64,000 nt of DNA from Taibaiella lutea. GTDB lineage: Bacteria; Bacteroidota; Bacteroidia; Chitinophagales; Chitinophagaceae. The DNA is taken from positions 341,410-405,409 of the forward strand of contig NZ_VWSH01000002.1 of assembly GCF_008629695.1 (NCBI RefSeq). Direction: 5' to 3'. Below, one piece after another: positions 10,753 through 12,411 of this stretch. The notes under the pieces were generated by a model. The model was not told the DNA's origin, made no database searches, and was given only the letters and a program-made list of their open reading frames with translations. The stretch's first letter is position 1. Every line of letters begins with the position of its first letter. The position numbers and the translations under genes are program-made.

Positions 10753-11118
10753 TTTGAAAAATTTTTTGTTGAGTAAAGTTATTCTTTATTTATTCCGATT
10801 TTTAATAAATTAAAAAATTAAATTTTCATTAACTACTCAACGCTAGGTATCATGCATAACTCATATTTGACAATTGGTTTTATTTTTTAATAAATAATCA
10901 ACCAATTGTAAGACGATTATATGATTTTTGTCAACTTTTTTGTTTTATCCGGCGCGTAAATAGCTATAATTTTTAAGCCTGAATCATTCTCTTTTATAGC
11001 TTGAATTATGAACGAACGTTCAGTTTGAAAAAGGATCTTAGCGAGAATAAGGAAGGCTTATTGGTTTCCGGAATTCATAAACCGGGAATTATGAGTGCTA
11101 CAAACTATATTTTCTAAA
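10753..11118. other. AT-rich intergenic spacer
   Basis: Presumed promoter region of the small minus-strand gene followed by AT-rich sequence without a credible frame. A short palindrome tgaacgttca occurs near 11015-11024. Nothing else was recognised before the palindromic element at 11119. Confidence 0.45.
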
Positions 11119-11368
11119 CGACTATCTGCATGCAGGAAACAGCAGACGATAAACCGAATTTATCCCCGTAGGGATTTAATATTGGTAGTAATGTAGATTA
11201 CGTATTATTGGTTTGTCCTGTAGGGACAAGATCGGATAGCATTGTCCATTTGTAATGTTGCAATGTGACCCCGCCGGGGTCTTAACAGAGCGGTTTAATA
11301 TATTCTACCAATATTAAATCCCTACGGGATAATCTGAATATTTTGTTTCCTGCATGCAGATAGCCAAT
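11119..11368. repeat. REP/MITE-like palindromic element with nested inverted repeats
   Basis: An outer perfect inverted repeat of 19 nt (ctatctgcatgcaggaaac, 11122-11140, and its complement 11345-11363) encloses an inner perfect 22-nt inverted repeat (11167-11188 and 11305-11326; core cgtagggatttaatattgg). Two small hairpins sit in the middle: ttgtcc/ggacaa at 11213-11229 and gacccc/ggggtc at 11267-11281. The 250-nt element is flanked by the direct repeat ttttctaaa (11110-11118 and 11369-11377), which looks like a target duplication. There is no open frame. From memory the inner core resembles dispersed repeats of Bacteroidota genomes; a non-autonomous element is inferred. Confidence 0.75.
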
Positions 11369-11383
11369 TTTTCTAAATGAAAA

Positions 11384-11414
11384 AACCTTACAGAATTTCA
11401 AATCCTGTAAGGTT
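11384..11414 (-). terminator. Terminator of the deoxyhypusine-synthase-like gene
   Basis: A 10-bp stem aaccttacag/ctgtaaggtt with an 11-nt loop, 23 nt past the minus-strand stop at 11437, with a T-run on the minus strand. It shares the ACCTTACAG motif with the hairpins at 23671 and 43430. Confidence 0.75.
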
Positions 11415-11436: not shown

Positions 11437-12411
11437 TTACATTCCCAGCAAATAAGCAAAAATCAAAGGAGCTACAATGGTAGCATCGCTTTCAACAATG
11501 AACTTAGGTGTATGGATATCTAACTTGCCCCAGGTAATTTTCTCATTCGGAACAGCGCCGGAATAAGAACCATAAGAGGTTGTGGAATCAGAAATCTGGC
11601 AGAAATAAGACCAGAACGGAACATCATGCCATTCCAAATCCTGGTACATCATGGGAACGACGCAAATCGGGAAATCACCTGCAATACCGCCGCCAATCTG
11701 GAAGAAGCCTAAACCCTTGCCGGTGCTCATTTCACGGTATAATTCCGTAAGCCAGACCATATATTCAATGCCGCTTTTAACGGTGCTTGCTTTCAATTCG
11801 CCTTTGATGACATAGCTTGCGAAAATATTACCCGTAGTGCTGTCTTCCCAACCCGGAACGATAATCGGAAGATTCTTTTCGGCTGCCGCTACAATCCAGC
11901 TGTTCTTAGGGTCAATTTCATAATATTCTTTCAACTCGCCGCTTAATACAATTTTGTATAAAAATTCATGCGGGAAAAAACGCTCGCCTGCTGCTTCTGC
12001 ATCTTTCCATGCTTTTTCCAGATGTTTTTGTAAACGACGGAATGCTTCTTCTTCAGGAATACAAGTATCTGTAACGCGGTTGTAATGGTTTTCCAATAAA
12101 TCCCACTCGTCTTGCGGTGTAAGGTCGCGATAGTTCGGAACACGTTTGTAGTGCGAATGCGCCACAAGATTCATTACGTCTTCTTCAAGGTTTGCACCTG
12201 TACATGAAATCATGTGAATCTTATCCTGGCGAATCATTTCAGCTAAGGAAATACCTAATTCGGCTGTACTCATGGCACCTGCAAGCGATACCAGCATTTT
12301 ACCGCCTTCCGTCAGGTGTGTTTCATATCCTTTGGCAGCATCCACCAAAGCGGCTGCATTAAAGTGACGGTAATGATGTTCGATAAACTGAGAAACGGGA
12401 CCTTTACTCAT
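11437..12411 (-). CDS. Deoxyhypusine synthase-like enzyme (possible homospermidine synthase)
   Basis: A 324-residue cytosolic NAD-dependent enzyme of the deoxyhypusine synthase family. Visible family features are a SLAGAMSTAELG nucleotide-binding region (about residues 42-53), SCTGANLEEDV (69-79), VPGWEDSTTGN (193-203), GGGIAGDF, and the C-terminal NEKITWGKL segment holding the lysine (about K296) that forms the butylimine intermediate in the eukaryotic enzyme. Bacteria lack hypusinated eIF5A. Bacterial members are thought to transfer aminobutyl from spermidine to putrescine or a similar acceptor, and homospermidine is a usual polyamine in this phylum, so polyamine synthesis is inferred. It is a single gene with its own -7 box and terminator. 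Confidence 0.85.
   Translation of the reverse strand: MSKGPVSQFIEHHYRHFNAAALVDAAKGYETHLTEGGKMLVSLAGAMSTAELGISLAEMIRQDKIHMISCTGANLEEDVMNLVAHSHYKRVPNYRDLTPQDEWDLLENHYNRVTDTCIPEEEAFRRLQKHLEKAWKDAEAAGERFFPHEFLYKIVLSGELKEYYEIDPKNSWIVAAAEKNLPIIVPGWEDSTTGNIFASYVIKGELKASTVKSGIEYMVWLTELYREMSTGKGLGFFQIGGGIAGDFPICVVPMMYQDLEWHDVPFWSYFCQISDSTTSYGSYSGAVPNEKITWGKLDIHTPKFIVESDATIVAPLIFAYLLGM

Follow-up and report, generated by a model that had tools for sequence, protein, structure and literature searches.

A probable IS1595-type MITE that carries REP-like hairpins resembling Y1-linked repeats in Taibaiella lutea

Bacterial MITEs include RUP, NEMIS and Nezha (PMC3733652) and MITEPye1 of IS1182 (PMC11578231), and the usual view of MITEs, according to the accessible text of PMC3852290, is that each is a deleted copy of a parent IS. 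A second described system comprises REPs and REPINs with their RAYTs (accessible text of PMC2817692, PMC3116915 and PMC3733652); PMC3733652 defines a REP as a palindrome with the tetranucleotide GTAG or CGTC at one of its ends. In the IS1595 family an element has a single transposase gene, and the TIR of Merlin begins with GG, according to the accessible part of PMC8101967. Among the TnpA-Y1 enzymes, subclass 1.2 of Quentin et al. 2018 has the signature DH[IV]H, WQ and Y---Q--HH; in the accessible part of that paper it is said to have, in general, no terminal structures of the IS200 type, and the table gives 'no' for it at a place where hairpin or REP types are entered for others (PMC6006769).

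The element described here lies in a window of 64,000 nucleotides, the whole stretch of T. lutea DNA that was analysed. With RUP, NEMIS, Nezha and MITEPye1, as far as the accessible text on them goes, it shares a length of 70–300 bp, terminal inverted repeats (TIRs) of 15–30 bp, a non-coding character and, presumably, movement in trans by enzymes that recognise the TIRs. It differs from them in its apparent origin from another IS family, in a REP-like, Y1-linked inside, and in that the same ends hold other insides in other genomes. Like REPs and REPINs, its inner units are short palindromes in inverted pairs that occur also beside a Y1 gene, but they stand within TIRs, were inserted with target duplications and have a low copy number. 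The conserved unit ends in GGTAG, with a spacer between its GTAG and the hairpin. Among the matches listed in a search of titles and abstract beginnings of open-licence PMC, none concerned this element or REPs inside IS1595-type ends, which is no proof of novelty, and no MITEs in Chitinophagaceae were found in that open-licence literature. We consider it highly likely that the element is an IS1595-type MITE with TIRs, an 8-bp duplication and an inner REP cluster linked to Y1 repeats. The earlier note had placed it in the REP/MITE kind, which is apt, the outside being MITE-like and the inside REP-like.

The TIRs of the window element are ACTGACTATCCGCATGTAGGAAACA, with ends of the type ACTGACTATCCG (Table 1). 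An inverted-repeat search returned an outer perfect inverted repeat of 20 nt (11122–11141 and 11344–11363) and, nested within it, an inner one of 24 nt (11165–11188 and 11305–11328); the earlier note had recognised this nested pair but put its lengths at 19 and 22 nt. By a hand count, 700 bp of sequence would contain such a 24-nt repeat by chance with a probability of about 1 in 10^9. The two inner hairpins named before, TTGTCCTGTAGGGACAA and GACCCCGCCGGGGTC, are real as read from the sequence. The copy is intergenic, just beyond the stop of the neighbouring gene, which we take to be deoxyhypusine synthase-like, and a terminator-like inverted repeat at 11384–11414 stands between that stop and the element. 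Among open reading frames of at least 25 aa, those reaching into the 251 bp encode only 33 and 39 aa, and Rfam at gathering thresholds gave no match in the window.

Table 1. Features of the window element and its surroundings, with the linked Y1 gene elsewhere in the genome
Feature	Position	Strand	Basis or remark
Whole MITE	11118..11368	.	251 bp; alignment of six copies, also of 11 copies
Left 8-bp target-site duplication TTTTCTAA	11110..11117	.	register from 61-element comparison
Right 8-bp target-site duplication TTTTCTAA	11369..11376	.	register from 61-element comparison
Left terminal inverted repeat, one T lost	11118..11141	+	inverted-repeat search, copy alignment, TIR matches
Right terminal inverted repeat	11344..11368	-	inverted-repeat search, copy alignment, TIR matches
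REP-like hairpin A ATCCCCGTAGGGAT	11162..11175	.	read from sequence; compared in 11 copies
REP-like hairpin B TTGTCCTGTAGGGACAA	11213..11229	.	read from sequence; compared in 11 copies
Hairpin C GACCCCGCCGGGGTC	11267..11281	.	the only one of the four not matched near the Y1 gene
REP-like hairpin D ATCCCTACGGGAT	11318..11330	.	sequence, REP-core matches, 11-copy comparison
Inner 24-nt inverted repeat, left arm	11165..11188	+	one REP unit: hairpin, then spacer ending GGTAG
Inner 24-nt inverted repeat, right arm	11305..11328	-	left-arm REP unit inverted
Neighbouring gene, outside the element	11437..12411	-	
Y1 transposase gene	G000:C3:233365-233826		own genome; product 153 aa

A genome search found six near-full copies in the genome of T. 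lutea, the window copy included, the five others being 82–88% identical to it. When aligned with their flanks the six end together, and their mutual identity is 88–95%. An older subfamily occupies five further places (L020, L021, L022, L023 and L069; L022 and L023 could be aligned only in part), is 60–69% identical to the first subfamily and has the four hairpins in identical order. The repeat, for whose 22-nt core and 19-nt ends a genome search had been proposed earlier, is multicopy, with six near-full copies and 11 places once the older subfamily is counted. One lone further end lies at G000:C2:286154. Two of the older-subfamily MITEs (L023 200–480 and L021 200–330) adjoin a short array of AGGTA-TACCT-like units; these two places have a flank in common, which may reflect the duplication of a larger unit.

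In the T. lutea genome the TIR consensus TGACTATCCGCATGTAGGAAACA is matched 13 times at up to three mismatches, and the reversed pattern not once. Matches occur in eight of 195 family genomes, namely the window genome, two of its three congeners, three genomes of the genus Edaphocola, G101 and G113. In T. koreensis, which like E. aurantiacus is classed in Chitinophagaceae by NCBI, a looser TIR pattern gave 203 matches versus 2 for the reversed control. The same TIR pair encloses a different palindromic interior in a Saprospiraceae MAG (L170 7069–7286).

We examined the target duplication in 61 distinct TIR pairs less than 700 bp apart, taken from sampled loci, in the fixed register [8 bp][2 nt]TGAC...GTCA[2 nt][8 bp]. 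The flanking 8-mers are exact in 29 of the 61 elements, and at least seven of eight positions agree in 41; in 2000 shuffles of the right flanks among elements the number of exact 8-mers had a mean of 0.09 and a maximum of 2. The duplication is therefore 8 bp long. Four of the seven window-genome elements in the set have an exact 8-mer duplication. The window copy itself has lost a T from its left TIR (ACGACTATC for ACTGACTATC) and therefore scores 4/8 in the rigid register, but 8/8 once shifted by one base. The 9-bp direct repeat reported earlier, TTTTCTAAA at 11110–11118 and 11369–11377, does flank the element, but the agreement of its ninth base, an A, is coincidental at this AT-rich site, and the duplication proper is TTTTCTAA. 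With multiple copies, TIRs, 8-bp duplications and no transposase gene within 251 bp, the description of a non-autonomous mobile element is upheld.

Empty sites were sought with the joined flanks of five insertions in five genomes. For one E. aurantiacus insertion (L167) there is a junction-spanning match in the sister species E. flava (G033:C8), 87% over 460 columns and unbroken round the junction; on re-alignment, TTAAATTA occurs once in E. flava and in two copies around the element in E. aurantiacus. The four other queries gave no junction-spanning match in another species among the five genomes, and no empty site was found when 82 TIR pairs were compared with the sampled loci. All three congeners retain the gene that adjoins the window copy, each without the element at the end of that gene; the next gene differs in the congeners, and their sites therefore do not form a strict empty site. 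The empty sites that the earlier note had called for are thus represented cleanly by the Edaphocola insertion and by no strict case for the window copy. Its opposite picture, a single genomic copy with no empty sites in relatives, is contradicted by the many copies and by the empty site of this related insertion.

The hairpin structure is conserved: over the 11 copies 97.6% of cells pair, versus 35.8–59.5% with the partners slid. Covariation is thin, with one compensatory C-G to T-A change in hairpin C between the subfamilies (five sequences, one event) and a score higher than in all but one of 500 shuffles; neither covarying pairs nor pair types are more numerous than in the shuffled data. 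One could read this pairing and compensatory change, the constant order of four hairpins in 11 copies and the intergenic place of the window copy just past a terminator-like repeat as signs that the cluster is kept for a host role, as a transcription terminator, mRNA-stability element or nucleoid-protein site, its mobility being only past. We regard this as very unlikely: the copies are few and their places scattered, the duplications and the empty site fit plain insertion, and the element is absent from the window position in the three congeners.

Inside the MITE, the hairpins resemble repeats beside a Y1 gene. A search for the REP core in the T. lutea genome gave 18 matches at up to three mismatches and none for the control; the six full copies account for 11 and the older subfamily for five, and single matches lie beside the Y1 gene and at C1:1117324. 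The 3' flank of this Y1 gene matches the element interior at E 2.6e-5, 9.1e-5 and 5.9e-4 in a comparison with the whole genome. The matching stretches cover hairpins A, B and D, three of the four, and A and B follow in the same order beside the gene (76% over 75 columns). These matches establish homology of the three inner hairpins to the Y1-gene flank. The four other Y1-like loci of the genome gave no match to the element interior, so that one of five matches. The hairpin core contains GTAG, which recurs in 11/11 copies as GGTAG where unit A ends, about ten bases from the hairpin and separated from it by a spacer.

The product of the Y1 gene contains DHIH, WQ and YINNQELHH (Y---Q--HH), the subclass 1.2 signature. 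Relatives at E 1e-30 occur in 53 of 147 family genomes, and we analysed the flanks of 30 homologous loci (including two cut by contig ends, for which the gene bounds are approximate), 25 of which match a joint subclass-1.2 motif that also allows related residues. In the 300 bp next to the Y1 genes the four 7-mers CCGTAGG, CCTACGG, CCATAGG and CCTATGG were counted 63 times (3.5 per kb), and at distances above 600 bp 23 times (0.43 per kb), as against 11 and 24 occurrences (0.6 and 0.4 per kb) of six control 7-mers. At least one such core lies within 300 bp at 16 of the 30 loci, and none at the other 14. Perfect hairpins in general are also denser near Y1 genes (6.2 and 4.3 per kb vs 1.7), partly because such DNA is more often intergenic. 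In its motifs and its length of 153 aa the T. lutea product is like TnpA-Y1 subclass 1.2; the Chitinophagaceae genes differ in being enriched for flanking CCGTAGG-type cores, contrary to the description in the accessible text of PMC6006769. Hairpin arrays of the CCGTAGG/CCTACGG type stand beside many subclass-1.2-like Y1 genes of the family (L246–L275).

Given these flank matches, the CCGTAGG-type cores within 300 bp of related Y1 genes at 16/30 loci and the seven of 18 REP-core matches outside the six full copies, one might suppose that the whole element is of REP/REPIN type and is copied by a Y1 (RAYT-like) transposase encoded elsewhere in the genome. We find this highly improbable, since the whole element has TIRs and exact 8-bp duplications, the Edaphocola insertion has an empty site with one target copy, such ends occur on IS1595 transposons, and MITEs with the same ends and other insides also show duplications. 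To our knowledge, Y1 enzymes do not make target duplications, and REPs and REPINs insert without them. TIRs combined with 8-bp duplications are common to IS1595-family transposons and point to a DDE enzyme; in all likelihood the window element was moved in trans by such an enzyme of IS1595 type and not by a RAYT. Where the earlier note had offered a RAYT or an IS enzyme as trans mover, the IS enzyme is thus favoured by the IS1595 transposons with such ends, and the RAYT is improbable for the element as a whole. A Y1-type transposase, which it had suggested looking for, is encoded in the genome and is linked to the inner hairpins and not to the whole element.

By eye, the insides found in T. 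koreensis, Edaphocola, G101 and G113 are unlike the Y1-linked repeats, which limits the suggestion of REP capture to a single lineage. T. koreensis has a second set of MITEs of about 300–360 bp with the same TIR and a GCTCCGCCAAAAAAG interior (L139, L140, L143 and others). Its MITE motif GCTTGTCGAA occurs 14 times in 5,091 bp of MITEs vs four times in 149,102 bp, at loci chosen for their TIRs; as the motif is mostly within MITEs, this cargo did not emerge as an independent repeat. Nor did the Y1-linked hairpin of T. koreensis emerge as a dispersed family, with two core matches, both in one array, in 162,715 bp of partly overlapping sequence. Since other genomes hold other cargos, the TIR shell seems to accept various palindromic insides.

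PF12762, the IS1595 transposase domain, is present in all eight TIR-bearing genomes and absent from TIR-less G001, a co-occurrence that offers weak support for such a mover. We scanned for inverted ends with an 8-bp duplication around 18 of the 19 PF12762 places, omitting one at a contig end. Window-type ends were found on two transposons: one of 14,678 bp in E. aurantiacus, its ends matching at 24/24 with the duplication TAATTGAT, and one of 4,036 bp in G101, its ends matching at 22/24 with the duplication TAATGCTT. In each, an end lies 156–158 bp before the transposase start. Nine further places have GG ends with 8-bp duplications, and seven, the window genome's two IS1595 genes included, gave no clear ends. 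Both transposons resemble the IS1595 family in their PF12762 transposase and 8-bp duplications, and the E. aurantiacus enzyme also in its N-terminal zinc ribbon (PF12762 80.6 bits and PF12760 29.6 bits, both above cut-offs); the G101 transposase reading frame is broken. IS1595 TIRs begin with GG, perhaps not generally. The window-type ends differ in beginning with ACTGA, whereas the nine other IS1595 elements here begin with GG; furthermore, the E. aurantiacus element, at 14.7 kb with passenger genes, is not confined to a single transposase gene, and the window element has no transposase. Several bases of the E. aurantiacus and G101 ends are unlike the window TIR, and both genomes belong to genera other than Taibaiella. 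A MITE of another DDE family, for example IS4/Tn5-like with its 9-bp duplication, is a highly improbable reading: we dropped it after the 8-bp register test, the CTGAC end resembling that of Tn5 and 12 of the 61 elements having a 9-bp match in one register (the window copy with its apparent 9-bp repeat had raised the idea), but the common register is 8 bp and the only transposons found with such ends, in the scan around PF12762 places, carry IS1595 transposases.

The E. aurantiacus transposon (L210 6371–19984, continuing in L206; G192:C3:246386-261063) has as passengers a TIR-domain protein matching the PADLOC ThsB and PDC-S66 models, a pepsin-like protease, a LuxR-type response regulator and a 966-aa protein with a secretion-type tail. 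The cargo is large and possibly anti-phage.

We built a tree of 22 transposases from all 19 PF12762 places and three relatives (G152, G160 and G212). The E. aurantiacus and G101 enzymes are sisters (support 98/97) and form with the three relatives a clade apart from the rest; only these two of the 19 places fall in this cognate clade, and the window genome's two IS1595 genes belong to another. Judged by the PF12762 places and the tree, a cognate-clade transposase is absent from six of the eight TIR-bearing genomes, including the window genome and MITE-rich T. koreensis. A search with the E. aurantiacus enzyme in 394 family genomes found five with a match at E 1e-40 or better; at that threshold the window genome, G001, G002 and T. 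koreensis had none. The MITEs of the window genome and T. koreensis may therefore be stranded, or their partner may be too diverged or missing from the assemblies. The earlier note rightly stated that no transposase lies nearby, and movement in trans by one encoded elsewhere is probable; among the enzymes found in the window's genome none is cognate. Near the clade members of G152, G160 and G212 there were no ACTGA ends or TIR in the scanned DNA, which did not include a longer G152 piece (L225).

Two other candidates for an autonomous partner were rejected. The IS1595 element of E. flava (L163/L214) is a different IS1595 transposon nested in a MITE; at L163 2188–6890 it measures 4.2 kb, with ends GGCATTAATATACG and duplication CTATTTAT. 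In G126 a TIR near an IS1595 gene (L200) points away from the gene, which sits between GG-type ends 17.6 kb apart (L215). These GG-ended inverted repeats (L215 1282–18914, G126:C1) match at 23/24 with the 8-bp duplication TATAAAAT and bound a very large IS1595-type element.

Taken as an IS1595-type MITE, the element would be moved as follows. A DDE transposase of the IS1595 family, its gene lying on an element whose ends are of this kind, would bind the TIRs, make staggered cuts 8 bp apart at an AT-rich site and insert the element, leaving the TTTTCTAA duplication. The four-hairpin REP-like cluster, an inverted pair around two others, would have been captured between IS1595-type ends and may derive from, or share ancestry with, the repeats beside the subclass-1.2 Y1 (HuH) gene of the same genome. 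Movement in trans by an IS1595 enzyme, capture of the cluster, the direction of that capture and a present ability to move are inferences. More tentatively, and with somewhat more doubt than confidence, we see a chimaeric element in which a Y1/HuH REP cluster within IS1595 DDE ends lets REPs rely on a foreign enzyme, and in which subclass-1.2 Y1 enzymes are REP-associated with CCGTAGG families of their own.

In several genera, ends of a single kind enclose hairpin cargos that are unlike one another. Together with the resemblance of the cargo here to Y1-linked repeats, this points to MITE shells as able to capture REPs and to spread them. An IS1595-type shell with a REP cargo is a natural test of how REPs gain mobility, and the link between subclass-1.2 Y1 enzymes and CCGTAGG-type repeats, if true, would supply these enzymes, which have been described as lacking such structures, with repeats as partners.
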